From Ornithinimicrobium cryptoxanthini (lineage in GTDB: Bacteria; Actinomycetota; Actinomycetes; Actinomycetales; Dermatophilaceae), in NCBI RefSeq assembly GCF_023923205.1, contig NZ_CP099490.1, positions 1,922,001 through 1,986,000 on the forward strand: 64,000 nt of DNA, given 5' to 3'. Within the stretch, counting starts at the first letter, position 1. Each line of letters opens with the position of its first letter. Shown in pieces: positions 1,608 to 17,220 of this stretch. The position numbers and the translations under genes were made by a program. A model generated the notes under the pieces. That model worked only from the letters and a program-made list of their open reading frames with translations, did not search any database and was not told the DNA's origin.

Positions 1608-2288
1608 TTACTCGCGGGGCGGCGGGTCCTCAGAGACGATCTCTCCCTCAATGACGTCGGAGCCTCCCGGCCCTCTCGAACCCGGCCCAGAACCCGTCCC
1701 CGCACCGGAGCGGGACCTGGCTCCCCCGGCCCCTGGCATGGTCCCGGGCAGGACGGTCGCCACGCGGGCGCCCAGGACCACCTGGAGCAGTCTGCGACTC
1801 ACGCCGCGGGTGAACGGCAGGATCAGGAAGATGCCGAGCAGGTCGCTGACGAACCCGGGCAGCAGGAGGAGCAGACCGCCCACCAGGATCAGGCTGGCAT
1901 CAGCAAGCTCACGCCCGGGCATCCGCCCGGTGTCCACGGCGGTGCGCAGTGCCCGCCAGGTGCGCGAGCTCTCCCGGCGCACCAGGACGCTGCCGATGAC
2001 GACAAAGAGCAGCAGCAGCCCGATCGTCCACCACGGACCGATGGCCTGGCCCACCGCGATCAGCACCACGATCTCCAGGAGCACCAGCAGCATCACCCCG
2101 GCAAAGATCAGACGCAGTCTGCGGGGCGCTCGGCGGCGACCGGGCCGCGTGCTGGAGACCCGCCGGCGCCCCGAGGGGCCGCCACCGCCTGCAGACCCGG
2201 TCCTTCCTGATCCGGCCGCGCCAGGTCCGCTGCCCGAACCGCTGTCGTCCGGGCGGATCGGGCCGCTCAGTCCGTCAGTTCGCGCCAT
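1608..2288 (-). CDS. fxsA: FxsA family membrane protein
   Basis: 226 residues. After a long disordered Gly/Ser/Pro/Arg-rich N-terminus (about 85 residues), the FxsA core follows: paired hydrophobic helices (LRLIFAGVMLLVLLEI, WWTIGLLLLFVVIGS), the conserved RRESSRTWRALRTA segment, and GGLLLLLPGFVSDLLGI. E. coli FxsA influences phage F exclusion by sequestering PifA; the general role is unknown. ATG 2288 is chosen because it keeps the overlap with the upstream ppm gene to 22 nt. The 3' tail is again Gly/Ser-rich. It is probably the last gene of an lnt-ppm-fxsA unit. Confidence 0.85.
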   Translation of the reverse strand: MARTDGLSGPIRPDDSGSGSGPGAAGSGRTGSAGGGGPSGRRRVSSTRPGRRRAPRRLRLIFAGVMLLVLLEIVVLIAVGQAIGPWWTIGLLLLFVVIGSVLVRRESSRTWRALRTAVDTGRMPGRELADASLILVGGLLLLLPGFVSDLLGIFLILPFTRGVSRRLLQVVLGARVATVLPGTMPGAGGARSRSGAGTGSGPGSRGPGGSDVIEGEIVSEDPPPRE

Positions 2289-3094
2289 GTCCCGCCCGAT
2301 CCGATCCGGCCGACCGCCCGACGCGCTGCGGCGCCGACCTGCGCCCCACGACGGCTGATCCCCCACAGGGTCACCCGGCCCAGAGCCTCCTGCACGATGC
2401 GACGATCCATCTTGGAGGTGCCCACCTCACGCTCGACAAAGTCGATCGGCACCTCGACCACCCGCAGTCCGCGGTCGACCGCGCGCAACGTCAGGTCCAC
2501 CTGGAAGCAGTAGCCCTGGGAAGCGACTCCGTCGAGGTCCATCTGGCGCAACGCGTCCAGCCGATAGACCCGATAGCCGGCCGTCGCATCACGCACCGGG
2601 ATGCCCACCGCGGCGCGAGTGTAGGTGTTGGCACCGCGGCTGAGCAGGTCTCTCGAGCGTGGCCAGTTGTGGGTGGCCCCGCCAGGCACCCAGCGCGAGC
2701 CGATGACCAGCTCAGCCTCCTCGGCCGCAGCCAGCAGCGTGCCCAGCTGCTCCGGCAGGTGGGACCCGTCGGCATCCATCTCGACGACCGCGTCATACCC
2801 CTCGGCCGCCGCCCAGGCAAAGCCAGCGAGATAGGCAGGACCGAGCCCCTGCTTGCCCGCCCGGTGCAGCACCCGCACCTGCGGATCGGAGGAGGCCAGC
2901 TCGTCGGCGAGGGCGCCGGTGCCGTCCGGGCTGTTGTCATCCAGGACCAGGATGTCGACCTGCGGCTGGGCTGCGCGCACGCGCGCGACCACGCCGGGAA
3001 GGGAGTCCTTCTCGTTGTAGGTCGGGATGAGGACGACGACCCGTCCGAGGGGCTGCTTCATGGTGCTGGAGGACCTGCCTTGCTGAGGAGACAT
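2267..3094 (-). CDS. Polyprenol monophosphomannose synthase (GT2)
   Basis: 275 residues, a family 2 glycosyltransferase with VLIPTYNEKDSL, the nucleotide-binding LDDNSPDGTG and the catalytic EMDADGSH. Later motifs (GSRWVPGG, DATAGYRVYR, GYCFQVDLT, VEREVGTSKM) match dolichol/polyprenol-phosphate mannosyltransferases. It would move mannose from GDP-mannose to polyprenyl phosphate for extracytoplasmic glycosylation. It follows lnt by 11 nt. In mycobacteria the two activities are fused as Ppm1, but here they are separate genes. The start at 3094 is preferred for this spacing; an internal ATG at 3061 is an alternative. Confidence 0.92.
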   Translation of the reverse strand: MSPQQGRSSSTMKQPLGRVVVLIPTYNEKDSLPGVVARVRAAQPQVDILVLDDNSPDGTGALADELASSDPQVRVLHRAGKQGLGPAYLAGFAWAAAEGYDAVVEMDADGSHLPEQLGTLLAAAEEAELVIGSRWVPGGATHNWPRSRDLLSRGANTYTRAAVGIPVRDATAGYRVYRLDALRQMDLDGVASQGYCFQVDLTLRAVDRGLRVVEVPIDFVEREVGTSKMDRRIVQEALGRVTLWGISRRGAQVGAAARRAVGRIGSGGTWRELTD

Positions 3095-3105
3095 GTCCCA
3101 GCAGC

Positions 3106-4599
3106 CTAACGCCGGCGGCGGGTCAGAACCGCGCCGAGGATCATCGCGGCCAGCCCGGCGACGGCGATCCGCTCGGGCCACCAGCCCAACTCCGCCGCCA
3201 GGGTCAGGTCGGTCCGGCGCGGCACGGACCCGGAGATGATGTCCTGGGTGAAGAGCTCGGTCTTGTCATGCACCGACCCGTCCGGCATGACCAGGCCGCT
3301 GACCCCGACGGTGCTCACGTGCACCACCGCTCGGCCCAGCTCGACCGCCTTGACCCGGGAGGCGGCCAGCTGCTGCTCGGACTCGGCGGTGAAGCCGAAG
3401 GTCGCGTTGTTGGTCGGGACGAACAGGACCTCCGCGCCCAGCAGGACGTTTTCGCGCATCAGGTCATCCACCACGACCTCGAAGCAGATCGCGACGCCGA
3501 GCATGAGGTCACGACCTGCGAGCGGGACCGTCAGCACCCCGGGCTCGGTGCCGGCCACGAAGTCGCGGGCCACGAGGTCGACCTGGTCGCTGAAGAGCCG
3601 GAAGAAGTCCCGATAGGGGATGTACTCGCCGAACGGCACCGGTCGCTGCTTGACATAACGATCGACTACGCCCTCCCCCGGCAGATAGAGCAGGCTGGCG
3701 TTGGTGGAGTGGTCCTCCGGTTCCCGCAGGACAGCCCCCACGATCAGGGGCACGTCCAGCGCCGCGACCGCCTCGGCGATCGCCATGGCGGCGTCCTGGT
3801 TGCGCAGCGGATCGATGTCAGAGGCGTTCTCGGGCCACAGCACCAGCTCCGGTGCCGCCAGCTCCCCACGCTCGACCAGCTCCGCTGCGTGCAGCGTGGT
3901 GGAGACGTGCTTGTCCAGGACGGCGCGACGCTGTGCGTTGAACTCCAGGGTCATCTCCGGCACGTTGCCCTGCACGCCCAGGACCTGAAGGGGCTCACCG
4001 TCGATCGGACGTGGGATCGCCAGTGGGCCGACGAGCAGCACAGCCGCTGTCAGCCCGGCAGCCGGGGCCACCCAGCGGCTGGGTCCGCGCACGGCGCGTT
4101 CCAGGGCGAGTGCCCCCAGGGCTCCGACGAGGGCTGCGACAAAGGTGACACCGGGTGTGCCGAGCCATGACGCCACGGCCAGCAGGGGCGCGTCGGCCTG
4201 GCTGAAGCCCACCCGCGCCCAGGGGAACCCGCCAAAGGGGGTGGTGGACCGGGCGAGCTCGCTGACCACCCAGGCCAGGGCCACGGACAGGGGCCGCACC
4301 CCGTCCCGCTGGAGGTAGCCGCAGACGGCCCCCAGCCCCGCGACATACAGGGCCTCCAGCCCAGAGAGCGCCAGCCAGGGCAGGGCACCAACGAAGACGC
4401 CGGTCCAGGACAGCAGCGGCACGAGATAGGCCAGGCCGGCCGTCAGGCCGAGGGCCAGCCCGCGCCAGAGCCCGACCTGCGCGGTCGCCAGTGCCAGGGC
4501 ACCGATCCCGACGTAGGCCATCCACCACAGGTCGTGGGTGGGGAAGGCCAGCCACAGGCACAATCCTGCGGCGACGGACAGGACCAGGCGGAGCAGCAC
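3106..4599 (-). CDS. lnt: Apolipoprotein N-acyltransferase
   Basis: 497 residues with an N-terminal set of about six membrane helices (residues 1-195), a periplasmic-side nitrilase-fold domain (about 205-470) and a final helix. The expected catalytic triad is visible: E257 in WPENAS, K317 in RYVKQRPVPFGEYIP and C372 in VAICFE. Lnt adds the third acyl chain to lipoproteins; substrates in this window would include the solute-binding protein and the FKBP lipoprotein. It is co-directional with ppm and fxsA, with the first start 48 nt from the DAHP synthase end. Confidence 0.96.
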   Translation of the reverse strand: MLLRLVLSVAAGLCLWLAFPTHDLWWMAYVGIGALALATAQVGLWRGLALGLTAGLAYLVPLLSWTGVFVGALPWLALSGLEALYVAGLGAVCGYLQRDGVRPLSVALAWVVSELARSTTPFGGFPWARVGFSQADAPLLAVASWLGTPGVTFVAALVGALGALALERAVRGPSRWVAPAAGLTAAVLLVGPLAIPRPIDGEPLQVLGVQGNVPEMTLEFNAQRRAVLDKHVSTTLHAAELVERGELAAPELVLWPENASDIDPLRNQDAAMAIAEAVAALDVPLIVGAVLREPEDHSTNASLLYLPGEGVVDRYVKQRPVPFGEYIPYRDFFRLFSDQVDLVARDFVAGTEPGVLTVPLAGRDLMLGVAICFEVVVDDLMRENVLLGAEVLFVPTNNATFGFTAESEQQLAASRVKAVELGRAVVHVSTVGVSGLVMPDGSVHDKTELFTQDIISGSVPRRTDLTLAAELGWWPERIAVAGLAAMILGAVLTRRRR

Positions 4600-4647: not shown

Positions 4648-5751
4648 TCAGGAGCTCCGTCGGTCCCGCCGCTCGCGCGTGGCGGCGGCGAGGTCGCTCA
4701 GCACCTGCTCCGTGGTGGCCCACTCCATGCAGGAGTCGGTCACCGACTGACCATAGGTCAGACCGTGCGGTGCGGGCTCCTGCCGGCCGCCCACCAGGAA
4801 GCTCTCCAGCATCACCCCCGCGACCGTGTCGTCACCTGCCGCGACCTGGGCTGCGATCTCGCGGGCGACGACGGCCTGGCGGATGTGGTCCTTGCCGCTG
4901 TTGCCGTGGCTGGCGTCGACCACCAGGCGAGGAGTCAGTCCTGCCTTGACGAGCCGCTCACGGCTGCTGGCCACGGACGGGACGTCGTAGTTGGGGCCGG
5001 TGCGTCCGCCACGCAGGATGACGTGACCGTCGGGGTTGCCCTCGGTCTCCACCAGGGCGGCGCGGCCGGCGTCGTCGACCCCGAGGAAGGTCTGAGGGGC
5101 CGCGGAGGCCACGCAGGCGTCCACCGCGACCTGGACGCTGCCGTCCGACCCGTTCTTGAGCCCGACCGGCATGGACAGGCCTGAGACGAGCTGCCGGTGC
5201 ACCTGCGACTCGACCGTGCGGGCCCCGATCGCGCCATACGTCACGGTGTCCGCGATGTATTGCGGCGTCGTGGTCTCGAGGAACTCACACCCCGCGGGGA
5301 GACCCGCGGCCAGGACGTCCAGGAGCACCTTGCGGGCCAGCCTCAGTCCGCGCGGGATGTCATAGGTGCCGTCCAGGTCCGGGTCGTTGATCAGACCCTT
5401 CCAGCCGGTCGTGGTGCGCGGCTTCTCAAAATAGACCCGCATCACCACCACGAGGTCGTCGGCCAGCTGCTCGGCCAGCGCGGACAGGCGGTGGGCATAG
5501 GCGATCACGGCGACCGGGTCGTGCACCGAGCACGGGCCGACGATGACCACGAGCCGGTCGTCGACGCCGCGCAGCACGTCCTGCACGTCCTGGCGGGAGC
5601 GCGCGACCAGGTCGGCCAGCCCATCGGACAGCGGTTGCTCCGCGAGGATCTCCGCAGGGGTGGGCAGCGGCTCCATGCGTCGCACGCGCAGGTCGTTGGT
5701 CGTGACGTGCGTGCTGCTGGCCGCGGTGGCGTCCGGGTGGGGGCTCATCAT
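4648..5751 (-). CDS. aroF: 3-deoxy-7-phosphoheptulonate synthase, class I (AroF/G/H type)
   Basis: 367 residues. VGPCSVHDP, the PEP/E4P-binding KPRTTTGWKGLINDP, GLKNGSDGS, and VDASHGNSGK identify a class I DAHP synthase, the first step of the shikimate pathway. The start is one of two adjacent ATGs (5751 or 5748) with GAGG upstream. The upstream region contains a candidate aromatic leader peptide and attenuator hairpins, which suggests ribosome-mediated control by aromatic amino acids. The symbol aroF follows the leader-controlled corynebacterial enzyme; which effector inhibits this enzyme cannot be read from sequence. Confidence 0.95.
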   Translation of the reverse strand: MMSPHPDATAASSTHVTTNDLRVRRMEPLPTPAEILAEQPLSDGLADLVARSRQDVQDVLRGVDDRLVVIVGPCSVHDPVAVIAYAHRLSALAEQLADDLVVVMRVYFEKPRTTTGWKGLINDPDLDGTYDIPRGLRLARKVLLDVLAAGLPAGCEFLETTTPQYIADTVTYGAIGARTVESQVHRQLVSGLSMPVGLKNGSDGSVQVAVDACVASAAPQTFLGVDDAGRAALVETEGNPDGHVILRGGRTGPNYDVPSVASSRERLVKAGLTPRLVVDASHGNSGKDHIRQAVVAREIAAQVAAGDDTVAGVMLESFLVGGRQEPAPHGLTYGQSVTDSCMEWATTEQVLSDLAAATRERRDRRSS

Positions 5752-5819
5752 GGTCCTCTAGGTCTAGGAGGCGGGATCACCCTCGCTGCCGAAGCGTCCG
5801 CCCCACTGAGATGGCGAAA

Positions 5820-5899
5820 GGCGCGGACCGTGTGGTCCACGCCCTGGTCGGCTCCGGTGTGCGCGCGTCAGATGATCCTCGCGCCGGCCGGAGCCGACC
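5820..5899 (-). promoter_or_regulatory. Candidate aro attenuator hairpins
   Basis: On the minus strand two structures follow the leader codons. The first is a perfect 12-bp inverted repeat, GGTCGGCTCCGG (leader coding part, 5899-5888) with its complement at 5857-5846. The second is a 10-bp hairpin (5843-5834 with 5829-5820, one U-G wobble, 4-nt loop) followed by TTTCGCC, which looks like a terminator. The first arm lies just after the Tyr-Trp-Phe-Phe codons, so ribosome position could change folding. The exact antiterminator pairing was not resolved. Confidence 0.6.
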
Positions 5900-5930
5900 C
5901 AAAGAACCAATAGTCGCGAGCGGTGTGCAT
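5868..5930 (-). CDS. aro leader peptide (20 residues, DYWFF core)
   Basis: A 20-codon reading frame, ATG 5930 to TGA 5868, with the consecutive codons Asp-Tyr-Trp-Phe-Phe at positions 6-10. Four adjacent aromatic codons including Trp in so short a frame, directly upstream of a DAHP synthase and over an attenuator-like structure, are the signature of a leader peptide. A comparable leader is reported upstream of aroF in Corynebacterium. There is no Shine-Dalgarno sequence. A TACCCT hexamer ends 6 nt before the ATG, so the transcript probably starts at the ATG (leaderless). Confidence 0.75.
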   Translation of the reverse strand: MHTARDYWFFGSAPAGARII

Positions 5931-6329
5931 GGCTAGAGGGTACCTGGCTCCGGTGAGTGCTGTGAGTCAGGGTCCGTGCGCCGTTGGTGCCGATCCTCCC
6001 GCGACGGGTTGTCGCCGAAGTCACGTTGTCTACTGAGCGCACGGACCCTGACTTGTCCACAGTCATGCGTCCCGGCACCCTTGCGCGGTCGACACGTTGG
6101 CACGGGACGAGCAACCGGCGGTCCGGGCTACCAGGGTGGCCCCACCTCGCGATGAAACCTGTTGCGGACCTGGGAGCTAACTTAGCCTGCTGGCGCGTCC
6201 TGTCAAACCCCGAGTGACCTGCGGTTTTGCGCGTTCATGCAGGTCAGGTGGTGGTGCGCCACGTCACACTTTGCGACGAACGGCAGGCGGACCCCGGCGT
6301 GTCGCGGACGACACGCCGAGGGGACGTGT
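5931..6329. other. Intergenic region upstream of the aro leader
   Basis: 399 bp without a supported gene. It holds the probable aro leader -10 (TACCCT, 5942-5937), an 8-bp inverted repeat TGACCTGC/GCAGGTCA (6215-6222 and 6239-6246, 16-nt spacer) of unknown role, and the hairpin at 6295-6318 after the kam operon. Short open frames here lack coding character. Confidence 0.5.
6295..6318 (-). terminator. Putative terminator of the kal end of the kam operon
   Basis: A perfect 10-bp hairpin CGGCGTGTCG-CGGA-CGACACGCCG, 12 nt after the kal stop codon. No T-tract follows. Confidence 0.6.
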
Positions 6330-6722
6330 TCACCCGGCCGGCGGGACGACGACGACACCGCGCGCGGTCGTCGCCAGGAGGGGCGGATCCAGCAGATCCG
6401 CGGCCGACTCACCGCGCTGGCTGGTGCCGCGGGCGGTCACCCGCACCTCGAAGTCCATCTCTCGACTGCGCGACCCGACGCGCACGAGCGTGGCGGAGAT
6501 CTCCAGGCAGTCACCGGCGCGCACCGGGCCGAGGAACTGCACGTCGGAGTAGGACGCGAAGAGTCCTTCGTCGCCGTCCGTGCGGATGCACAGCTCAGTG
6601 GCGACGTCACCGAACAGAGCCAGGCTGTAGGCCCCGTCGACGAGGTTGCCGGCATAGTGCGCGTGACTGTAGGGGACATAGCGGGAGTGGACGACGCGGT
6701 CGCCGACGGTGGCCTGGCTCAC
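6330..6722 (-). CDS. kal: 3-aminobutyryl-CoA ammonia-lyase
   Basis: 130 residues with a hot-dog fold pattern. The N-terminal SHAHYAGNLVDGAYSL segment and the length match Kal of the lysine fermentation pathway, which eliminates ammonia from L-3-aminobutyryl-CoA to give crotonyl-CoA. It starts with GTG inside the stop of kamE (GTGA overlap) and is the last gene of the operon kdd-amidohydrolase-kamD-kamE-kal. Taken alone, the protein could be called only a generic hot-dog thioesterase or dehydratase; the genomic context makes Kal the best assignment. Confidence 0.88.
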   Translation of the reverse strand: MSQATVGDRVVHSRYVPYSHAHYAGNLVDGAYSLALFGDVATELCIRTDGDEGLFASYSDVQFLGPVRAGDCLEISATLVRVGSRSREMDFEVRVTARGTSQRGESAADLLDPPLLATTARGVVVVPPAG

Positions 6723-7525
6723 TGCTGCTCCTGTGGTGGCTTCGAGGACTTCTTGGGGTTCTGCGGTGGCCGGGACTTCCGGGACGCGACGGCGTGGACC
6801 AGATAGGAGGCCACCTCGGACGGTGTGGTGCCCTTGCCGAAGATGCGATCGACCCCCAGCTCCTGGGCCGTTCCCTCGGCGAAGCGCGGACCGCCCGCGA
6901 TCAGCAGCGGGACCTCGCCGCTCGGATAGGCCTCGCGGAAGGCGGCGGACATCGCCGTGGTGTTGTGGATGTGTGCGTCGCGCTGGGTGACGACCTGACT
7001 GATGAGGACCGCGTCCGCCTGCTCAGCGCGCGCGGCCTCCACGAGCTCAGGCACCAGCACCTGCGCGCCGAGGTTGACCACCCGGACCTCGGAGTAGGAC
7101 TCCAGCCCCTTCTCACCGGCAAAGCCCTTGATGTTGAGGATCGCGTCGATGCCCACCGTGTGGGCGTCGGTGCCGATGCAGGCGCCGACCACGACCAGCG
7201 GACGACGCAACGACTTCTTGATGGCCCCGTTGACCTCCTTGGCCGACAGCAGCGGGAAGTCCCGCTCAATGACCTCGACCTTGTCCAGCTCGACCAGATG
7301 GGTCACGCTGCCATAGACGACAAAGAAGGTGTGCTCACGGCCCATCGCCTTGGCGTGCACGAGCAGCGCCGGGGACAGGCCCATCTTCTCGGCCAGCTGC
7401 AAGGCCGCGCCCTCGGCCCGCTTGTCGTGCGGGATCGGCAGGGTGAACGAGACCTGGATCATGCCGTCACCGGTCATGTCGCCATAGGGGCGGATCACCG
7501 AGCCCTGCTCCTTTGCGCCGCTCAC
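6719..7525 (-). CDS. kamE: Lysine 5,6-aminomutase, beta subunit
   Basis: 268 residues. The C-terminal half is a B12-binding Rossmann domain with the DxHxxG motif (D120-A-H122-T-V-G125), whose His replaces the dimethylbenzimidazole ligand of cobalamin. Shortly after it, K133 in NIKG is the likely pyridoxal phosphate lysine, and the later LISQ and AGGPRF complete the domain. With KamD it shifts the 6-amino group of beta-lysine to C5. The GTG start (7525) overlaps the kamD stop as GTGA and has a strong GGAGGAGGG Shine-Dalgarno sequence. The C-terminal tail is Lys/Pro-rich. Confidence 0.95.
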   Translation of the reverse strand: MSGAKEQGSVIRPYGDMTGDGMIQVSFTLPIPHDKRAEGAALQLAEKMGLSPALLVHAKAMGREHTFFVVYGSVTHLVELDKVEVIERDFPLLSAKEVNGAIKKSLRRPLVVVGACIGTDAHTVGIDAILNIKGFAGEKGLESYSEVRVVNLGAQVLVPELVEAARAEQADAVLISQVVTQRDAHIHNTTAMSAAFREAYPSGEVPLLIAGGPRFAEGTAQELGVDRIFGKGTTPSEVASYLVHAVASRKSRPPQNPKKSSKPPQEQQ

Positions 7526-9111
7526 TGACCCTCCTCCAACAACGTGGTGGCCGGGTTGTCGTAGTCTGCGGCCTTCTGGGCCACGCCCTCCAACCCCTTG
7601 CCCCGGTCGGCGGGACGCTTCATGTGACCGAACGTGCCGACGGCGATCGCCTCGAGGAGTGGAGCCCATCCGTGCGTCGACGGCTCGACGTGGATCTGGT
7701 CCATCAACTCGATCGCCTCGCCCAGCACGTGCCGGGCCCTGGTCTGGATGAAACCGTCCCGCGGCGGGTGGAAGTCCTCGGCCAGCCCACCGGCCGCGTT
7801 CAGCACATAGCGGACGTTCTGCAGCGCGAGATCCCGGTCGGACAGGAACGGCGTGACGACCGCCTCGGTCATCATGCCGACCAGGAGGATCGACTGACCG
7901 GTCAGGACTCCCGCAAGGTTGAAGAACCCGTCGAGCAGGAAGCCCTTGAAGATGTCTCCGGTCATGTGCTTCGTCGGTGGCATCCACTTCAGCGGCGCGT
8001 CGGGGAAGAGGTGGCGTGCCAGCAGGGCGTGCGCCAGCTCCATCCGGAAGCTGTCCGGCAGGTCCGGGTTGATCTCGAAGGCGTGCCCGAGGCCGAGCTG
8101 CCAGTCCGCCAGCCCGGCCTCCTTGCCGAAGTACTCGTTCATCAGCTGGGAGACGGTGACCGTGTGGGCCGCCTCGACCGCGTCGGCGGTGGTGAGGTAG
8201 TTGTCCTCACCGGTGTTGATGATGATCCCGGCCCGGGCATGGATCTGCCGCGAGAACCGCTGGTCGACAAAGGTGCGGATCGGGTTGATGTCGCGGAAGA
8301 GGATGCCGTACATCGAGTCGTTCAACATCATGTCGAGACGCTCGAGGCCGGCCAGGGTGGCGATCTCGGGCATGCACAGGCCGGAGGCGTAGTTGACGAG
8401 CCGGATGTAGCGACCCAGCTCCTTGCCGACCTCGTCCAGCGCTGCCCGCATCAGGCGGAAGTTCTCCTGCGTGGCATAGGTCCCGGCGAAGCCCTCGCGG
8501 GTCGCGCCCTCCGGCACGTAGTCCAGCAGTGACTGCCCCGTCGAGCGGATGACCGCGATGATGTCGGCACCCTCCCGGGCGGCGGCCTGGGCCTGCGGGA
8601 TGTCCTCATAGATGTCACCGGTCGCCACGATCAGATAGATCCACGGGCGCTGCTTCGGGTCACCCAGCCTCGTGATCATCTTCTCGCGGGTGGCCCGTTG
8701 CCGGTCGATCTGCCGTATGCCGGGCCGCACCGCTGCCATCGCCGCCCGTCGGGCGCGGGTCAGCTCTGTCTTGGTCTCGGGGATCTGGAAGGTGACCGCG
8801 CCGGTGGAGGCCTTCTGGGCCAGGGTGAGCAGGTCCGGGGCCTCCTGGCGGCGCAACGCGTCCCACACGGGCGTGGTCACGCCGTGCTCGATGCCGACCT
8901 GGTCCCGGACGGCGTCGACCAGGTGGTTGACCCACGGCACCCGCTCGTGGTCGGCTCCCGACAGTCCCGCCAGGCGCAGCGTCGCCCGCTCGACCGAGAC
9001 GGTCGTGTGCGAGGTCGCCAGCTTCACGACAGGCTGACCGAGCCTCGCGGCGTGGCTGCGCGCGCGGCGGACCTCGGCGCGGTCGAGCTCCAGGACCTTG
9101 CGGGCACTCAC
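7522..9111 (-). CDS. kamD: Lysine 5,6-aminomutase, alpha subunit
   Basis: 529 residues, colinear with KamD TIM-barrel subunits, with characteristic segments IPETKTELTRARRAA, TGDIYEDIPQAQAAAREGAD, VIRSTGQSLLDYVPEG, and SGLCMPEIATLAGLERLD. It carries most of the active site of the adenosylcobalamin- and PLP-dependent mutase that converts L-beta-lysine to 3,5-diaminohexanoate. The GTG start overlaps the preceding amidohydrolase stop (GTGA), and its own stop overlaps kamE in the same way, fitting 1:1 synthesis. No cobalamin riboswitch was recognised in the region. Confidence 0.96.
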   Translation of the reverse strand: MSARKVLELDRAEVRRARSHAARLGQPVVKLATSHTTVSVERATLRLAGLSGADHERVPWVNHLVDAVRDQVGIEHGVTTPVWDALRRQEAPDLLTLAQKASTGAVTFQIPETKTELTRARRAAMAAVRPGIRQIDRQRATREKMITRLGDPKQRPWIYLIVATGDIYEDIPQAQAAAREGADIIAVIRSTGQSLLDYVPEGATREGFAGTYATQENFRLMRAALDEVGKELGRYIRLVNYASGLCMPEIATLAGLERLDMMLNDSMYGILFRDINPIRTFVDQRFSRQIHARAGIIINTGEDNYLTTADAVEAAHTVTVSQLMNEYFGKEAGLADWQLGLGHAFEINPDLPDSFRMELAHALLARHLFPDAPLKWMPPTKHMTGDIFKGFLLDGFFNLAGVLTGQSILLVGMMTEAVVTPFLSDRDLALQNVRYVLNAAGGLAEDFHPPRDGFIQTRARHVLGEAIELMDQIHVEPSTHGWAPLLEAIAVGTFGHMKRPADRGKGLEGVAQKAADYDNPATTLLEEGQ

Positions 9112-10709
9112 GTCAGTTCTCCTTGTCGGTCAAAGGTCACATGGCCGTCGACGACGGTCAGTCGGGCGGTCGGCAGGGGGCTCTGCGGGTCTGCCGCCAG
9201 GTCGGGCAGGCCGTCGCCCGTGCGCGGCAGGTCATCGTCCTGGTCCCAGACGACGTAGGACGCGGCCCGGCCCGGCGTCAGGGTCCCGCCGTCCCGCCCC
9301 GCCAGCTCGTAGCCGCCGCGAGTGTGGGCGGCGAAGGCTTCCGCGACGGTCAGCCGCTGGTCCGCGTTGTGGTGCCACACGGCATACATCACCGCCTGCC
9401 AGGGGTCCATCGACGTCACCGGGCTGTCCGAGCCCAGGGCCAGCCGGACTCCGGCGTCCACCATGGCGCGCAGCGGGACCGCGGCCAGGGCACGCTCCTC
9501 CCCCAGCCGTGCGGCATACATCCCCTCGGTGCCGCCCCAGAGTCCGTCGAAGGCGGGCTGCATGCTGGCCCAGATGCCGAGCTCGGCCATCGTCGCCAGC
9601 ACCTGGGCGTCAGGCAGCTCGACATGCTCCCAGCGGTGGCGCGCGGCCACCATCGCCTCGACCCCCACCACCTCCGCCGCCTGGCGGAACCCCTCGGCCA
9701 TGGTGTGCAGGGCGGCGTCGCCGATGACGTGACCACCGGCCTGCAGACCGGCGCGCGTGCAGGCGACGACGTGGGCGGCGATCTGCTCGGCGCTCAGGTA
9801 GCCGTAGCCGTGGCCGGGCTCATCGGCATACTCCTCAAGCAGGTGCGCGGTCCGCGACCCGAACGAGCCGTCGGCGCACAGATCGCCGGCCAGGCCCAGC
9901 ACCCCGAGGTAGCGGCCGAGCTCAGCGGCCTCCCCCACGTCGGCCGTCAACTGGCCCCAGTAGGCGACGGTCGCCGTGCGGGCAGGACGGCGCCCGGCCT
10001 CCAGCACGTGCTGCAGGTCGGTCCCGGAGGTGAGGTGGTCGGCGCCGGTCTCGTGGACCAGCCCGATGCCCTTCTCGGAGGCCGCGCGCAGCGCGAGGTC
10101 GAGGTAGTGCTCCCGGTCGCTGTCGGTCATCGCCGAGGTGAACGCGTTGGTGACGGCGGCGAAGGCATCGCGGGTGACCACCCCGCTGCCGTCCCACCCG
10201 TCCAACCCGCGGACCCGGGCCACCGCGGCCATCGCGGAGGACACGCTGGCGGAGTGGGCGTCGATCCGTGGCATATAGACGACGCCGCCGTAACACGCCC
10301 GGTCAAGCTCTGCTGCCGTGATCGGCCTTCCCTCGGCCCACTTGGTCTCGTCCCACGAGTGGGCATAGATCGGCCGTCCCCGCAGGTGCCGGGAGGCCGA
10401 CTCCACCAGTCGTAGCGCCTCCCCCACCGAGGTCGTGGCCGACAGGTCGATGCCGTCCAGCCCCTGACCCGTCATGGTCAGATGCACGTGGGCATCGCTG
10501 AACGCCGCGGTCACCAGGGCCCCGTCGAGGTCGACCACCTCGTCGGCGGCCCCCTCGTGCGCCCGCGCCTCCTGAGCGGAGCCGATCCAGGCGATCTGGC
10601 CGCCGCGGGACACCAGTGCGGTGGCACCGGGATGTCCGTGGATCTGTCCCCCGCGCAGGAGGATCGTCGGGACCGGGGGCGGAGCGGTGTGCTGCAGGTT
10701 GGTGGTCAC
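9108..10709 (-). CDS. YtcJ-like amidohydrolase (family 3) within the lysine cluster
   Basis: 533 residues of the metal-dependent amidohydrolase superfamily. Visible are the N-terminal beta-sandwich start (TILLRGGQIHG), the HxH metal pair in SDAHVHL, further histidines in VHETGAD, GGHVIGDAALH and HRWEHVELP, and the late aspartate in LGSDSPVTSMDPW. The closest general class is YtcJ-like (amidohydrolase 3). It is translationally linked on both sides (GTGA overlaps with kdd and kamD), so it is co-made with the lysine enzymes. No amidohydrolase step is known in the pathway and the Kce gene is missing here, so its role is open. Confidence 0.85.
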   Translation of the reverse strand: MTTNLQHTAPPPVPTILLRGGQIHGHPGATALVSRGGQIAWIGSAQEARAHEGAADEVVDLDGALVTAAFSDAHVHLTMTGQGLDGIDLSATTSVGEALRLVESASRHLRGRPIYAHSWDETKWAEGRPITAAELDRACYGGVVYMPRIDAHSASVSSAMAAVARVRGLDGWDGSGVVTRDAFAAVTNAFTSAMTDSDREHYLDLALRAASEKGIGLVHETGADHLTSGTDLQHVLEAGRRPARTATVAYWGQLTADVGEAAELGRYLGVLGLAGDLCADGSFGSRTAHLLEEYADEPGHGYGYLSAEQIAAHVVACTRAGLQAGGHVIGDAALHTMAEGFRQAAEVVGVEAMVAARHRWEHVELPDAQVLATMAELGIWASMQPAFDGLWGGTEGMYAARLGEERALAAVPLRAMVDAGVRLALGSDSPVTSMDPWQAVMYAVWHHNADQRLTVAEAFAAHTRGGYELAGRDGGTLTPGRAASYVVWDQDDDLPRTGDGLPDLAADPQSPLPTARLTVVDGHVTFDRQGELT

Positions 10710-11794
10710 GAGGTCCCAGTCTGCTCCCCCGCGAGGCGGGACTCGAACAGGGCACGCACGCCCGGGGTGTTGCGCAGCAGCTCGAGGGCGTAGTCGGCGT
10801 GCCCGGGGACATAGCCGTTGCCGATCATCATGCGGACATCCGCAGCCAGCCCCTCGGCACCCAGCGCCGCTGCGGCGAAGTTGGTAGCCATCGAGAAGAA
10901 GATGACGGTGCCTCCGGCGGCGGTGGACAGGATGGCGGGCTGCTCGCACCCGGGCACGTCGACGCACACGACCGTCACATCAGCGGGGCCTCCGGCCTGC
11001 TCGACCGCCGCGAGCAGACCCAGCGGGGAGCGCGCGTCGGCGATCACCACGGAGTCGGCCAGACCGGTGCCCTGGAGCAGGTCCGCCTCGCGCTGGAGCG
11101 GCACCACCGCGATGCGACGCGCCGCGCCGGCGTCCGCGGCGGCGGCCAGCGACAGGCTCCCGGACTTGCCGGCCCCACCGAGCACGGTCACGACCGGGTC
11201 CTGACCGGTGCGCGCACGGTGCTCGGTGACGACCCGGGAGACCAGCGCCGGGGCTCCGCAGACGTCCATCACCATCAGGGCGAGCTCGGCATCCAGGTCT
11301 TCGGGCAGCACCGCCGCGATGGAGCGACCAAACAGGATCGCGTGCCCCTTCGCCGGGACCCGCTCCCCCAGGCCGTCCCACGCCGCGAGCCCGTCGGTGA
11401 TCCGCAGCGGTGTCAGCGACAGCGAGACCAGCGTGGCGACGTGGTCTCCCGGCTGCAGCCCCAGCGTGCTGTCGGGCCCGACCTCGGCGACGCGGCCGAT
11501 CAGCATGCCACCCGACCCGGTCACCGGGTTCTGCATCTTGCCCCGGCTGGCCACGATCTCGAGGACCTCTGCGCGGACGGCGGCTCCGTCCACGGTGCCG
11601 TCCGAGCGGGTGTGTTTGCCCTCCATCTGGCGATAGGACGCCGCGTCGAGGTTGAGCACCTCGATGTCGATGCGCACCTCGTCGGCGCCGATCTGCGGGC
11701 TGTCATCCAGCCGCTGGGCAGCCTGCGGCAGGGTCAGTCCGCTGCCGACCGGTTCCAGGACCCGGTGCAGCCCGACGGGGCTGGTCGCAGTCAT
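10706..11794 (-). CDS. kdd: L-erythro-3,5-diaminohexanoate dehydrogenase
   Basis: 362 residues. The N-terminal LHRVLEPVGSGLTLPQAAQRLD and the nucleotide-binding VTVLGGAGKSGSLSL fit Kdd, which oxidises 3,5-diaminohexanoate to 5-amino-3-oxohexanoate with NAD+ and releases ammonia. The start at 11794 is chosen for GGGAGGA a few nt upstream; ATG 11806 lies within reach but has no such signal. It is the first gene of the minus-strand kam operon and is divergent from kamA across 82 bp. Confidence 0.93.
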   Translation of the reverse strand: MTATSPVGLHRVLEPVGSGLTLPQAAQRLDDSPQIGADEVRIDIEVLNLDAASYRQMEGKHTRSDGTVDGAAVRAEVLEIVASRGKMQNPVTGSGGMLIGRVAEVGPDSTLGLQPGDHVATLVSLSLTPLRITDGLAAWDGLGERVPAKGHAILFGRSIAAVLPEDLDAELALMVMDVCGAPALVSRVVTEHRARTGQDPVVTVLGGAGKSGSLSLAAAADAGAARRIAVVPLQREADLLQGTGLADSVVIADARSPLGLLAAVEQAGGPADVTVVCVDVPGCEQPAILSTAAGGTVIFFSMATNFAAAALGAEGLAADVRMMIGNGYVPGHADYALELLRNTPGVRALFESRLAGEQTGTS

Positions 11795-11876
11795 TCGTCC
11801 TCCCATGAGGCTTTGGCACAAGAAATCCTCCGGCGGGTGTTCGCTTTCACCGGAAGATATCCGTAGCATGCCACGT
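11795..11876. promoter_or_regulatory. Divergent kdd/kamA promoter region
   Basis: 82 bp separate the divergent starts. For kamA, TAGCAT (11864-11869) lies 7 nt before ATG 11877, the usual -10 position for a leaderless transcript. For kdd a Shine-Dalgarno GGGAGGA is present, and TATCTT on the minus strand is a possible -10. No clear operator was seen, although joint regulation from so short a region is likely. Confidence 0.5.
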
Positions 11877-13331
11877 ATGAGCAGTCTTATCGAGCAGCCC
11901 TACGACTACCAGCAGCGCGAACTGGTGGAACCTGACTGGACGCGCTTCCCGGGGTGGCGTGAGGTCACGGCCGAGCAGTGGGCCGACGTGCAGTGGCAGC
12001 GGGCCCACTGCGTCAAGAACATCAAGCAGCTGCGCGAGCTGATGGGTGACCTGCTGACCGAGGACTTCTATGCGGATCTGGAGCGGGACCAGGCCGAGCG
12101 CGCGACGATGTCGATGCTGGTGCCCCCGCAGATGCTCAACACGATGGTCTCGGAGATGACCTGGGCCGACGGTCGGATGCCGGCGGCCGGCGCGGAGTTC
12201 ACCGCCGCCTTCTATGCCGACGCGGTGCGCCACTACATGCTCCCGGTCTTCTCCGACCGGCGCACCGACTGGCCGTCGCACCCCTACTCCTCGCGCGACT
12301 CGCTGCACGAGCACGACATGTGGGTGGCCGAGGGTCTGACGCACCGCTACCCGACCAAGGTGCTCGCCGAGCTGCTCCCCACCTGCCCGCAGTACTGCGG
12401 CCACTGCACCCGCATGGATCTGGTGGGCAACTCCACCCCGCAGGTGACCAAGCTCAAGCTGGCCGGCAAGCCGATGGACCGGCACGAGGCGATCCTGGAC
12501 TACCTGCGTCGCACCCCGACCGTGCGCGATGTGGTGGTCTCCGGGGGCGACGTGGCCAATATGCCGTGGAAGAACCTCGAGTCCTTCATCGACCGGGTCC
12601 TGGACGTCGACAACATCCGCGACATCCGCCTGGCGACCAAGGCCCTGATGGGCCTGCCCCAGCACTGGCTCGCTCCGGACACCGTCGAGGGCGTGGCTCG
12701 CGTGGCCGCCAAGGCACGCACCCGTGGCGTCGGGCTGGCGATCCACACCCACGTCAACGCCGCCCAGTCCGTCACCCCGCTGGTTGCCGACGCCACCAAG
12801 GCGATGCTCGACGCCGGCATCCGCGACGTCCGCAACCAGGGAGTCCTCATGCGCGGCGTCAACGCCACCAGTGAGGACCTGCTGGACCTGTGCTTCGCCT
12901 TGGCCGACGGAGCTTCTATCACGCCCTACTACTTCTACATGTGCGACATGATCCCGTTCGCCGAGCACTGGCGGACCTCGCTGGCCGAGGCGCAGCACCT
13001 GCAGCACTCGATCATGGGCTACCTGCCCGGCTTTGCGACGCCGCGCATCGTGTGCGACGTACCCTTCGTCGGCAAGCGCTGGGTGCATCAGGTCGACAGC
13101 TACGACACCGAGCGCGGCATCTCATACTGGCGCAAGAACTACCGCACCTCCATCGAGGCCGCCGACGTTGACGTGACCAGTGCCGAGTACGTCTACTACG
13201 ACCCGATCTACACCCTGTCCTCCGAGGGCCAGAAGTGGTGGCACGACCACGGCGACGCCGCCACGACCCACGAGGCCGCCGCCGAGGCGGCCCGCAGCTC
13301 GCACGCAGCGTCGGTCGCGCAGCTGGACTAG
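11877..13331 (+). CDS. kamA: Lysine 2,3-aminomutase (radical SAM, KamA family)
   Basis: 484 residues. The radical SAM cluster motif C170-x3-C174-x2-C177 sits in CPQYCGHCTRMDLVG. It differs from the CSMYCRHCTRR form of clostridial enzymes but is the same Cx3Cx2C arrangement. Downstream VVSGGDVANMPW and DIRLATKALMGLP fit the KamA barrel. The enzyme uses SAM, a 4Fe-4S cluster and PLP to turn L-lysine into L-beta-lysine. ATG 11877 has a -10-like hexamer 7 nt upstream; ATG 11868 in frame would add three residues. Substrate lysine is inferred from the kamDE/kdd/kal context. Confidence 0.92.
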   Translation: MSSLIEQPYDYQQRELVEPDWTRFPGWREVTAEQWADVQWQRAHCVKNIKQLRELMGDLLTEDFYADLERDQAERATMSMLVPPQMLNTMVSEMTWADGRMPAAGAEFTAAFYADAVRHYMLPVFSDRRTDWPSHPYSSRDSLHEHDMWVAEGLTHRYPTKVLAELLPTCPQYCGHCTRMDLVGNSTPQVTKLKLAGKPMDRHEAILDYLRRTPTVRDVVVSGGDVANMPWKNLESFIDRVLDVDNIRDIRLATKALMGLPQHWLAPDTVEGVARVAAKARTRGVGLAIHTHVNAAQSVTPLVADATKAMLDAGIRDVRNQGVLMRGVNATSEDLLDLCFALADGASITPYYFYMCDMIPFAEHWRTSLAEAQHLQHSIMGYLPGFATPRIVCDVPFVGKRWVHQVDSYDTERGISYWRKNYRTSIEAADVDVTSAEYVYYDPIYTLSSEGQKWWHDHGDAATTHEAAAEAARSSHAASVAQLD

Positions 13332-13502
13332 GCGGCGCACCGGCTCGTCACAATGCGATCACGCAGAGATCACGACTATGCTCCGCTGGCGGCCTATCAG
13401 ACCCAGGGGTCGTATGGTGCGAAGAGATAGGCCGTCCTCCCCGGTCCTCGGGGTGGGCAACAGCAGCAGGTTCTGTGGGTTGGAACCGTCCAAGGAGGAA
13501 CG

Positions 13503-15179
13503 ATGAAGAGCAGGCGTATGACGGGACTCGCCGCGGTGGTCCTCGCGGGTTCCCTAGTGCTCACCGCGTGCAGCGGGGGCAACGGGGACGACGAGAGCAC
13601 TGACGGCGACGGCCCCGCGGACAACGGGACCGACGGCACATCGGAGACCAACGGCGGCGAGAGCGCTGCCACGACCGGGATCGTCACGGCCAACTCCAAC
13701 GAACCTCAGAACCCCCTGATCCCGACCAACACCAACGAGGTCGGTGGTGGCAAGATCCTCGACCTGATCTTCGAGGGCCTGGTCTACTACGACGCCGATG
13801 GGGCCGCCCACAACGCGGTGGCAGAGTCCATCGAGACCGAGGACAGCCAGAACTACACCATCACGCTCAAGGAGGGGCTGACCTTCTCCGACGGCTCCCC
13901 CGTCACCGCCGAGAGCTTCACCAAGGCATGGAACCAGGGAGCGCTGCTCAGCAACGGTCACCTGTCCAGCTACTTCTTCGAGCCCATCGAGGGCTTCAGC
14001 TATGACGAGGACTCCGACCTCACCGGTCTCGAGGTGGTCGACGAGACGACGTTCACGGTGGCGCTGCAGCAGCCCGAGGCGGACTTCCCGCTGCGACTGG
14101 GCTACTCCGCGTTCTTCCCGCTGCCCGAGTCCGCCTTCGAGGACCCCGACACCTTCGGTGAGAACCCGATCGGCAACGGCCCCTACATGCTTGACGGAGA
14201 GGGCGCCTGGGAGCACAACGTCGGCATCTCCCTCGTCCCGTCGGAGTCCTACCAGGGCGACCGGGTGGCCCAGAACGGCGGTGTCGACCTGAAGTTCTAC
14301 GAGACCCAGGACGCGGCCTACAACGACCTGCTGTCGGGCAACCTGGACGTGCTCGACGCGGTCCCCGACTCTGCCTTCGGCACCTTCGAGGACGAGCTGG
14401 GTGACCGTGCGGTCAACCAGCCGGCGGCGATCTTCCAGTCCTTCACCATCCCGATGGAGGCCGAGCACTTCTCCGGTGAGGAGGGCACGCTGCGCCGTCA
14501 GGCCCTGTCCCACGCGATCAACCGTGAGGAGATCACGCAGGCCATCTTCCAGGGCACCCGCACCCCGGCGGTCGACTTCACCTCACCGGTCATCGACGGG
14601 TGGTCGGACAGCATTCCGGGCGCCGAGGTCCTGCAGTATGACCCGGAGAAGGCCAAGGAGCTGTGGGACGAGGCCAATGCGATGTCGGAGTGGGAGGGCA
14701 CCTTCACGCTGGCCTACAACACCGACGGTGGCCACCAGGCCTGGGTCGACGCGACCGTGAACTCGATCCGCAACACGCTCGGCATCGAGGCGGAGGGCAA
14801 CCCCTACGCCGTCTTTGCCGACCTGCGCTCGGACGTCACGGCCCGCACCATCGAGGGCGCGTTCCGCACCGGTTGGCAGGCCGACTACCCCGGTCTGGGC
14901 AACTTCCTCGGCCCGCTCTACGGCACCGGCGCAGGGTCCAACGACGGTGACTACTCCAACGCCGAGTTCGACGACCTGCTGAGCCAGGCCGCCAGCGCCG
15001 GTTCGGTGGAGGAGTCCTCCACGCTCTACAACCAGGCACAGGAGATCCTCTTCCAGGATCTCCCGGTGATCCCACTGTGGTACTCCAACGTCACCGGTGG
15101 CAGCGCCGAGACGGTCGACAATGTGGCGTTCGGCTGGAACTCCGTGCCGATCTATCACGAGATCACCAAGTCCGAGTGA
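13503..15179 (+). CDS. Peptide ABC transporter substrate-binding lipoprotein (family 5)
   Basis: 558 residues with a lipoprotein signal peptide (positive start, hydrophobic core, lipobox L20-T-A-C23), a short Gly/Asp/Glu-rich linker and a complete solute-binding family 5 domain (LTFSDGSPVTAESFTKAW, NPIGNGPYML, GWQADYPGLGNFLGPLYG). It would capture di- or oligopeptides or similar cationic substrates outside the cell. The Shine-Dalgarno sequence AAGGAGGAACG is strong. It heads a transporter operon 171 bp after kamA on the same strand. A link to lysine use is suggested by position only. Confidence 0.93.
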   Translation: MKSRRMTGLAAVVLAGSLVLTACSGGNGDDESTDGDGPADNGTDGTSETNGGESAATTGIVTANSNEPQNPLIPTNTNEVGGGKILDLIFEGLVYYDADGAAHNAVAESIETEDSQNYTITLKEGLTFSDGSPVTAESFTKAWNQGALLSNGHLSSYFFEPIEGFSYDEDSDLTGLEVVDETTFTVALQQPEADFPLRLGYSAFFPLPESAFEDPDTFGENPIGNGPYMLDGEGAWEHNVGISLVPSESYQGDRVAQNGGVDLKFYETQDAAYNDLLSGNLDVLDAVPDSAFGTFEDELGDRAVNQPAAIFQSFTIPMEAEHFSGEEGTLRRQALSHAINREEITQAIFQGTRTPAVDFTSPVIDGWSDSIPGAEVLQYDPEKAKELWDEANAMSEWEGTFTLAYNTDGGHQAWVDATVNSIRNTLGIEAEGNPYAVFADLRSDVTARTIEGAFRTGWQADYPGLGNFLGPLYGTGAGSNDGDYSNAEFDDLLSQAASAGSVEESSTLYNQAQEILFQDLPVIPLWYSNVTGGSAETVDNVAFGWNSVPIYHEITKSE

Positions 15180-15204
15180 CCTCACCGCGCGACACGTGAG
15201 AGCA

Positions 15205-15234
15205 GGGGGCGGGGCCGAAGTGGTCCCGCCCCCT
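15205..15234 (+). terminator. Intra-operon hairpin after the solute-binding protein
   Basis: A strong GC hairpin, GGGGGCGGG...CCCGCCCCC with a short loop, between the binding protein and the first permease. In ABC operons such structures usually stabilise the upstream mRNA or reduce read-through, so that the binding protein is made in excess. Confidence 0.65.
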
Positions 15235-15314
15235 CGCCCGTGTCTTCGCGAGACTCGGCTGCCCGTGGTCGACACGGGTGGGCCCAGACCCAGACCGACT
15301 AGGAGGACGACCGG

Positions 15315-16241
15315 ATGCTGCGGTATATCGGGCGCAGACTCTTGCAGGTGATCCCGGTGTTCCTCGGGGCCACCCTGCTGATCTACTTCATGGTGTATGC
15401 GATGCCCGGCGACCCGGTTGCGGCGCTGGGCGGCGAACGTGGACTGCCCGAGGCGGTCCAGGAGCAGATCCGTGAGCGTTACAACCTGGACAAGCCGTTC
15501 ATCGTCCAGTACCTGCTCTATCTCAAAGGCATCCTGACCTTCGACTTCGGGATCACCTTCTCAGGCCGCGAGGTGATTGACGTCATCCGCGAGGCCTTCC
15601 CGGTGACGATCAAGCTGGCGTTCATGGCCATCGTCTTCGAGGCCGTCCTGGGAGTTGCCGCCGGTCTGGTCGCGGGGCTGCGTCGTGGCGGGATCTTCGA
15701 CGCCACGGTGCTCGTCGTCAGCCTGCTGGTGATCGCGGTGCCGACCTTCGTCATCGGTTTCGTGCTGCAGTACTTCGTCGGGGTCGAGCTGGGCTGGCTG
15801 CCCACCACCGCGTCGAGCGACTCCACCTTCCGAGACCTGCTGATGCCCGCTATCGTGCTGGGCGCCGTCTCCTTCGCCTACGTCCTGAGACTGACCCGCA
15901 CCTCGGTGGCCGAGAACCTGACGGCTGACTATGTCCGCACCGCCGCGGCCAAGGGCCTGTCCCGCAACCGGGTGATCAGCGTGCACGTCCTGCGCAACTC
16001 GCTGATCCCCGTGGTCACCTTCCTCGGAGCCGACCTCGGAGCGTTGATGGGCGGTGCGATCGTCACCGAGGGGATCTTCAACATCAAGGGCGTCGGTGGC
16101 ACCCTCTATCGCGCGATCCTGCAGGGAGAGTCCGCGACGGTCGTCTCACTGACGACCGTGCTGGTGCTGGTCTACATCGTGGCCAATCTCTTCGTCGACC
16201 TCCTCTATGCCGCACTCGACCCGAGGATCCGTTATGTCTGA
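15315..16241 (+). CDS. Peptide ABC transporter permease (DppB/OppB type)
   Basis: 308 residues with six predicted membrane helices. It begins MLRYIGRRLLQVIPVFLG, typical of DppB-type permeases, and has the EAA loop in the TRTSVAENLTADYVRTAAAKGL region that contacts the ATPase. GAGGAGGA is the Shine-Dalgarno region upstream of ATG. The following permease gene begins 8 nt before this stop, so translation is coupled. Confidence 0.95.
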   Translation: MLRYIGRRLLQVIPVFLGATLLIYFMVYAMPGDPVAALGGERGLPEAVQEQIRERYNLDKPFIVQYLLYLKGILTFDFGITFSGREVIDVIREAFPVTIKLAFMAIVFEAVLGVAAGLVAGLRRGGIFDATVLVVSLLVIAVPTFVIGFVLQYFVGVELGWLPTTASSDSTFRDLLMPAIVLGAVSFAYVLRLTRTSVAENLTADYVRTAAAKGLSRNRVISVHVLRNSLIPVVTFLGADLGALMGGAIVTEGIFNIKGVGGTLYRAILQGESATVVSLTTVLVLVYIVANLFVDLLYAALDPRIRYV

Positions 16242-17220
16242 ACACTTCGGCACGGGCCGGGAGAGCGGCCCGGAGCCGGACGCGGCCCGGCGACACCAGG
16301 AGCACTTCTTCGCCGAGATGGACGAGACCGGCCTCGGCGCCGTCGATGCGGTCCAGGACACCGGGGCCCCCTCTTCCCTGTGGTCTGAGGCGTGGCACAA
16401 GCTGCGTCGCCGCCCCCTCTTCTGGGTCTCGACCCTGATCATCACCGCGGTGATGGTGCTGGCACTCTTCCCGTCCTGGTTCACGTCCGTGGATCCTCGC
16501 TTCTGCGAGCTGTCCAACTCCCTGGGTGAGCGCGCGCCCGGCCACCCGTTCGGGTTCGACCGGCAGGGCTGCGACATCTTCTCGCGCACGATGTATGGCG
16601 CTCGCGCGTCCGTCCTCGTCGGCGTGCTCACCACCGTCGCGGTCGTCGTGATCGGGGTGACCGTCGGGGCCATCGCCGGCTTCGTGGGTGGTTGGGCAGA
16701 CACGCTGCTCTCGCGGGTCACCGACATTTTCTTCGCCATCCCGCTGGTCCTGGCCGCCATCGTCGTGATGCAGGTCTTCTCCGACAGCCGCTCCATGTGG
16801 ACGGTCATCGCCGTGCTGGGTGTCTTCGGGTGGCCGCCCATCGCCCGGATCACCCGTGGGACGGTGATGAGCATCAAGAACAACGACTACATCACGGCTG
16901 CGACGGCGCTGGGTGTGAGCAGGTTCAGCACGCTCATGCGCCACATCCTGCCCAACGCCGCCGCACCGATCATCGTCTATGCCACGGTCGCCCTCGGCAC
17001 GTTCATCGTGGCCGAGGCGACGCTCAGCTTCCTAGGCATCGGGTTGCCGCCGTCGGTGACCTCATGGGGAGGCGACATATCCAAGGCACAGGCGTCCCTG
17101 CGTTCCAACGCCACGGTGCTGTTCTATCCCGCCGGCGCGCTGGCCACGACCGTGCTCGGCTTCATCATGTTGGGCGACGTCGTGCGCGACGCCCTCGACC
17201 CCAAGGTGCGCAACCGATGA
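16234..17220 (+). CDS. Peptide ABC transporter permease (DppC/OppC type)
   Basis: 328 residues. A 70-residue polar N-terminus precedes the first helix (LFWVSTLIITAVMVLALF), followed by the DppC-type external loop with HPFGFDRQGCDIFSR and an EAA motif in ARITRGTVMSIKNNDYITAATALG. The start at 16234 has GAGG upstream and overlaps the preceding gene. The stop overlaps the ATPase start as ATGA. Confidence 0.95.
   Translation: MSEHFGTGRESGPEPDAARRHQEHFFAEMDETGLGAVDAVQDTGAPSSLWSEAWHKLRRRPLFWVSTLIITAVMVLALFPSWFTSVDPRFCELSNSLGERAPGHPFGFDRQGCDIFSRTMYGARASVLVGVLTTVAVVVIGVTVGAIAGFVGGWADTLLSRVTDIFFAIPLVLAAIVVMQVFSDSRSMWTVIAVLGVFGWPPIARITRGTVMSIKNNDYITAATALGVSRFSTLMRHILPNAAAPIIVYATVALGTFIVAEATLSFLGIGLPPSVTSWGGDISKAQASLRSNATVLFYPAGALATTVLGFIMLGDVVRDALDPKVRNR

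Follow-up and report, generated by a model that had tools for sequence, protein, structure and literature searches.

The question raised by this locus is whether a lysine-degradation cluster that lacks the gene for one of its enzymes still belongs to a complete pathway, and what a hydrolase embedded among its genes contributes. Lysine fermentation is assigned to kamA, kamDE, kdd, kce, and kal in the available passages of its description (PMC3149608). In the single-contig genome of Ornithinimicrobium cryptoxanthini (3.77 Mb), the stretch that we analyzed, 64,000 nucleotides from position 1922001 to 1986000 (hereafter the window), contains a cluster of kam genes without kce, and a gene for a YtcJ-like amidohydrolase, here called AmdH, lies between kdd and kamD. 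The initial annotation had singled out this amidohydrolase, and our analysis likewise finds it worth attention. The answer that we favor, with moderate confidence, is that the genome encodes a complete fermentation-type route of lysine degradation whose genes are split between two loci and in which AmdH acts first by releasing lysine.

Curated NCBIfam cut-offs served as the criterion for membership of the Kam enzymes, and KamD, KamE, Kdd, and Kal each exceed theirs (Table 1), which indicates that the kam cluster recognized in the initial annotation is real. A kamA-like gene is also present, which encodes a CxxxCxxC motif (CPQYCGHC) and in whose frame no Pfam family was found; a long minus-strand open reading frame (ORF) at 11847-13088 was taken to be its shadow and set aside. 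On the minus strand the genes follow the order kdd, AmdH, kamD, kamE, and kal, and neighbors share four-base overlaps. The coupling of AmdH to both flanking genes, as annotated initially, was confirmed: GTGA at 10709-10706 is common to the kdd stop and the AmdH start, and the AmdH stop overlaps the kamD start at 9111-9108. Further overlaps join the kamD stop to the kamE start (7525-7522) and kamE to kal (6722-6719, from the ORF ends). Because kamA is on the opposite strand, divergent from kdd and with its start 73 or 82 bases away from that of kdd, it is outside the transcript of kdd-AmdH-kamDE-kal, and the gap between the two starts is possibly a control region shared by kdd and kamA. The same gene arrangement was found again in other genomes and is therefore not due to chance.

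The best named match to KamD among the matches listed was from Ornithinimicrobium pekingense (85%). All five proteins (KamA-like, Kdd, KamD, KamE, and Kal) were encoded at 66 of the 80 named loci, and in the class sample of 296 genomes, 61 had a KamD over its cut-off. The Kam pathway is thus common in actinobacteria, and its supposed rarity in this group, which the initial annotation had called unusual, is rejected. Literature searched for lysine fermentation together with Tetrasphaera returned nothing, and no aerobic actinobacterial version of this route was found by title or abstract start among the matches listed, with subscription journals mostly uncovered. At four loci (L028, L036, L039, and L045, from Knoellia locipacati, Phycicoccus elongatus, and two metagenome-assembled genomes [MAGs]), a gene that from its sequence we take to be phosphate acetyltransferase-like lies between kdd and kamD, which is in line with acetate formation.

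We then consider the cleavage step. A whole-genome search for BKACE proteins (PF05853) found one protein only, with the match at C1:576022-576822 (300 bits; gene at C1:576007-576846), which is outside the window, 1.35 Mb from the kam cluster, and directly after a gene that we take to be ygfZ-like. By sequence, its closest solved structure is 2y7d, which was deposited as Kce (E 3e-59). When 78 BKACE proteins were aligned, 58 were at least 61% identical to the Kce candidate (near-type; 57 from kam-positive genomes and one from G015, which lacks kamD), and the other 20 were at most 38% identical. One Glu, at position 20 of the 2y7d chain and presumably the Glu14 of Kce that binds the substrate amine, is kept in 58/58 near-type proteins and 0/20 others; the HxH and a further Glu, which we assume to be metal ligands, are kept in both sets.

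The distribution of near-type proteins follows that of KamD. Across the class, where any protein 54% or more identical to the query, even a fragment, counted as near-type, such a gene was present in 59/61 KamD-positive genomes and 5/235 others (Fisher p 1.4e-53; these and the other co-occurrence figures are genome counts rather than independent events). Two of the five KamD-negative genomes, G300 and G347, carry KamD fragments under the cut-off, and the two KamD-positive genomes without a near-type Kce are G220 (80% complete) and G439. In the order sample (149 genomes), the corresponding figures were 19/21 and 1/128, and the two KamD-positive genomes without a near-type Kce were 73% and 62% complete. 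The named kam-positive genomes considered were those of 50 loci; the 80 named kam loci include 30 more, all MAG or uncultured records, which were omitted. An intact near-type Kce is present in 48 of the 50 (three of these copies were equated with checked loci through identical coordinates), is divided into two separate parts in one, and is missing from one. No BKACE gene was found within the sequence stretch examined at any of the 80 named kam loci, and an unlinked kce is therefore the rule in that set. At L346, a near-type Kce gene adjoins kdd in a kal-kamE-kamD-kdd cluster. Taken together, the lone BKACE protein, its kinship to 2y7d, the co-occurrence with kamD, and the linkage at L346 indicate that a Kce-like gene is present, and the pathway therefore looks complete. 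The gene for the "missing" Kce probably lies at a distant locus of this genome; a kce at another site was one of the options offered by the initial annotation and is the one that the second locus bears out.

Other arrangements of these genes were also seen. At L345 (G466), kce (54% identity) follows kdd and kal at 6066-8315, and no KamD match was present in the genome, so that this run represents the later steps of the pathway, with the aminomutases absent. In Phycicoccus elongatus Lp2 (G160; L235 and L236), the near-type Kce gene is broken into two parts separated by about 0.69 Mb, one (residues 5-161) adjoining a ygfZ-like gene and the other covering residues 157-273, either through a rearrangement of the gene or through an assembly fault. 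G439, of the same genus as G235 (Streptomyces by protein matches), is the only near-complete KamD-positive genome of the class without a near-type Kce. Its locus (L344, about 5500-18800) contains kamA, kdd and kamD in one 930-aa reading frame, and kamE, adjoining genes for a nonribosomal peptide synthetase-type adenylation enzyme, a luciferase-like monooxygenase, a pyridoxal phosphate aminotransferase, an ATP-grasp protein, and a major facilitator superfamily transporter; these kam genes may supply a natural-product building block.

AmdH is a member of PF07969 (227.5 bits), and its kin are mostly named "amidohydrolase" in databases (best 120 of 8000 candidates). Characterized relatives are the ε-lysine acylases of Streptomyces, SgELA, SmELA, ScELA, and SamELA, which are EC 3.5.1.17 according to the accessible parts of PMC10699109 and PMC11511702. 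The former source, as far as available, classes SmELA as YtcJ-like, describes SgELA as specific for Nε-acetyl-lysine, and lists the SgELA residues H76, H78, H330, H365, and D431 as metal ligands together with H177 (PMC10699109). The orthologue at L328, which lies beside ppm in a Streptomyces by protein matches, has exactly the published SgELA residue numbers, and those at L325-L327 and L329 show the same motifs at shifted numbers. A 24-base end sequence derived from the published SgELA reverse primers matches the L328 gene exactly at its final 24 bases, and the start of this gene differs by one base from the forward primer. This end was matched with at most one mismatch in 12/295 genomes of the genus, among which only the G235 site was confirmed as this gene from its start. 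The Streptomyces protein P0011 begins with MSQSTA and ends with QTVYVRPNE, as the SgELA primers encode by hand translation, and it has all six published SgELA residues (H76, H78, H177, H330, H365, and D431). The alignment of AmdH with P0011 spans almost all of AmdH at 46% identity (E 2e-128), and in it all five metal ligands are kept, as H74, H76, H327, H362, and D428.

Phylogenetic analysis agreed with this kinship. In a tree without P0011, 70 AmdH orthologues formed one group versus 9 paralogues with support of 100/100 (two short rows dropped), and in a larger tree that included P0011 (18 near-relative rows dropped, leaving 82), AmdH and P0011 stood together across a supported branch from the 9 paralogues. 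The placement of AmdH in one orthologue group with the SgELA-like protein is thus supported by sequence comparison. The group also includes the AmdH proteins of L198 and L199 (from G080 and G034), which are encoded between kdd and kamD and sit on long branches with 33-39% identity. From this kinship, we propose that AmdH most likely releases lysine from Nε-acyl-lysine, which would feed the pathway rather than replace one of its steps.

Several observations weigh against a complete pathway headed by AmdH. The best model for KamA, TIGR03820 (lysine 2,3-aminomutase), scores 151.7 bits versus a cut-off of 525.4, and TIGR00238 also matches below its cut-off (145.8 bits). The best NCBIfam model for the Kce candidate is Kce (NF052387), at 270.6 bits versus a cut-off of 382; because the candidate falls below this equivalog cut-off, we describe it as working like Kce and do not file it under NF052387. 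P0011 was equated with SgELA through its primer-encoded ends and residue numbers rather than through the accession of the deposited SgELA, WP_069631407.1, and 46% identity does not fix the substrate specificity of AmdH. The position of SgELA H177 is occupied by a different residue in AmdH; P0007 and P0008, close relatives of P0011, have Arg at this position, which makes H177 doubtful as a defining feature of these acylases. With AmdH counted as present at E of at most 1e-70, it occurred in 33/61 kamD-positive and 111/235 other genomes of the class (p 0.39; 35/61 if the diverged proteins of G034 and G080, scored as absent, are included). The association with kam genes considered in the initial annotation is therefore not found at the level of the class, where many orthologues occur in genomes without kamD. 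A clear orthologue was missing from 28/61 kamD-positive genomes, and AmdH is therefore not obligatory for the pathway. Finally, lnt, ppm, or both lie beside AmdH on the same strand in 36/40 kam-free loci (17/20 from the order and 19/20 from the class), and the reason for the embedding of AmdH could therefore be purely positional. The 36/40 is not a random sample, since the loci were chosen by score or by hand: those of the order were the top 20 by score out of 37 (G016, which would make 38 and has KamD fragments, was skipped), and those of the class were 20 of 111, hand-picked to represent many families. At one of the four misses, L342, the contig ends 0.4 kb after AmdH.

These observations bear on the main rival explanation, in which AmdH is a passenger at the lnt-ppm locus: a hydrolase of acyl-lysine or another N-acyl substrate that belongs to an old AmdH-lnt-ppm neighborhood, around which the kam genes arrived or from which they were lost, and which has no role in the pathway. 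We consider this possible, though less probable than the split pathway with AmdH at its head. It is favored by the kam-free loci and by the lack of association with kamD in the class, which fits a passenger as well as an optional feeder enzyme. At the named kam loci, same-strand lnt or ppm was found in 74/80, many without AmdH among them, and 37 of the 66 with all five kam genes have no AmdH in the stretch examined. Kam-linked AmdH proteins were not one clade in either tree, and at an 80% threshold no alignment column distinguished the 50 kam-linked rows from the 20 kam-free ones, which also led us to reject AmdH as a kam-specific subfamily. Against a passenger, AmdH usually abuts kamD when both are present (at most 700 bp away on the same strand in 30/36 named and 19/24 other loci), and in the window it overlaps the genes on both sides. 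In the order, where presence was scored at about 40% identity or more, AmdH was enriched with kamD (16/21 versus 38/128, p 1e-4), and its characterized kin acts on acyl-lysine. The kam label was clustered on the trees, with 4 changes versus a shuffled mean of 23.6, and 8 versus 27.3 when more kam-free rows were included, although such clustering is as expected where the label follows families and can arise from related rows alone. At kam-positive loci, kamDE-kal is positioned between AmdH and lnt-ppm; sampling was uneven for insertion of kam genes into this neighborhood versus loss from it. Literature searched for an amidohydrolase with lnt and polyprenol returned none.

Two further roles for AmdH fare much worse. 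Amidohydrolases can open cyclic amides, and lactams of 3,5-diaminohexanoate or 5-amino-3-oxohexanoate are chemically plausible, so that on general knowledge AmdH could open a lactam formed spontaneously from either intermediate; we regard this step, which resembles the opening of a cyclic by-product suggested in the initial annotation and which the pathway does not need, as very improbable, as the same orthologue is kept in genomes without kamD and no alignment column distinguishes the two sets. That AmdH replaces or modifies the cleavage step, as the initial annotation proposed from its position between kdd and kamD in a cluster without kce, is less probable still and was rejected, given the Kce-like gene at a second locus, the near-type Kce in 28/28 kamD-positive class genomes without a clear AmdH, the independence of AmdH from kamD in the class, the orthologues in genomes without kam genes, and the amide-hydrolyzing activity of the characterized kin. 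The second-locus gene and the kam-free orthologues are also the two observations that the initial annotation had named as counting against such a role.

In the split pathway that we favor, AmdH would hydrolyze Nε-acyl-L-lysine, such as acetyl-lysine from turned-over protein, to provide lysine for KamA. KamA and KamDE would rearrange lysine, Kdd would oxidize the rearranged product, the unlinked Kce would split the Kdd product with acetyl-CoA, and Kal would deaminate the resulting C4 product, steps that follow the known scheme as given in the available passages of PMC3149608. We infer all of these enzyme activities, the substrate of AmdH, and lysine supply as the reason for its operon position. 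More tentatively, and with a likelihood that we place rather low, the kam operon with an embedded ε-lysine acylase could represent an actinobacterial salvage pathway for Nε-acylated lysine from protein turnover.

These results suggest how an apparent gap in a pathway that recurs in many actinobacteria is resolved, with a kce candidate that is simply unlinked, and they name a strong Kce candidate gene for this group, though the curated model misses it. They also provide a widespread hydrolase with a testable function and suggest that acyl-lysine, besides free lysine, is a possible physiological substrate of the route. If the proposal is true, ε-lysine acylases, which are biocatalysts in the literature passages available, would gain a physiological partner, and lysine deacylation would be coupled to the "fermentation" route in organisms that are not known to ferment lysine. 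The pathway itself is already known. We found no published case of a kam operon that contains an orthologue of the ε-lysine acylases: literature searched for lysine acylase and aminomutase returned none, with subscription journals mostly uncovered.

The remaining features of the window surround the operon (Table 1). The gene adjoining lnt is presumably ppm, and a gene at about 1118-1477 on the plus strand, whose product we assume to be an RbpA-like protein, adjoins fxsA-ppm-lnt. The DAHP synthase gene was not found in the other loci compared. After kamA, oligopeptide-type transporter genes occupy 13503-17220, with a binding protein (PF00496) and two permeases recognized by eye; the binding protein and first permease had no match in the other loci compared.

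Table 1. Positions of the kam cluster and neighboring features within the window
Feature	Position	Strand	Evidence
ppm-like glycosyltransferase, adjoining lnt	2267..3181	-	glycosyltransferase models, none over cut-off; synteny; true start may be shorter
lnt, apolipoprotein N-acyltransferase	3106..4599	-	TIGR00546 248.9 bits, cut-off 132.9; synteny
DAHP synthase, between kal and lnt	4648-5751	-	TIGR00034 484.9 bits
kal, 3-aminobutyryl-CoA ammonia lyase	6330..6722	-	NF052388 184 bits, cut-off 160
kamE, lysine 5,6-aminomutase	6719..7525	-	NF052385 339 bits, cut-off 280; GTG start overlaps kamD stop; motif
kamD, lysine 5,6-aminomutase	7522..9111	-	NF052384 691 bits, cut-off 600
AmdH, YtcJ-like amidohydrolase, 533 aa	9108..10709	-	PF07969; overlaps; orthology to Streptomyces ε-lysine acylase; metal ligands by alignment
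kdd, 3,5-diaminohexanoate dehydrogenase, 362 aa, ATG at 11794	10706..11794	-	NF052381 241 bits, cut-off 200
Gap between divergent kdd and kamA starts	11795..11867		sequence
kamA, lysine 2,3-aminomutase-like radical SAM enzyme, ATG at 11868 or 11877	11868..13331	+	TIGR03820 and TIGR00238 below cut-off; CPQYCGHC

Compared with the lysine fermentation pathway in the available passages of PMC3149608, the window is alike in its four enzymes over curated cut-offs, in the presence of KamA- and Kce-like proteins, and in a reaction order that we infer to be the same. It differs in its unlinked kce, in the divergence of KamA and Kce from the curated models, in the amidohydrolase within the operon, and in the actinobacterial hosts. 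The Kce candidate resembles Kce in its 39% identity and in keeping the metal ligands and the Glu that presumably binds the amine; unlike Kce, it falls below the curated cut-off, has no copy in the stretch examined at any of the 80 named kam loci, and has a ygfZ-like neighbor in the genome of the window. The closest solved relative of AmdH by sequence, the uncharacterized metal-dependent hydrolase 3icj (E 1.2e-32), gives no function, and little can be transferred from it. With the Streptomyces ε-lysine acylases, as far as their descriptions are available, AmdH shares the YtcJ-like class, one orthologue group (with an SgELA-like protein), and five metal ligands at matching positions, and the Streptomyces orthologues at L325-L329 likewise adjoin ppm. 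AmdH, known here from its sequence, differs from these enzymes in its 46% identity to the SgELA-like protein, in the H177 position that is not conserved, and in its embedding within a kam operon.

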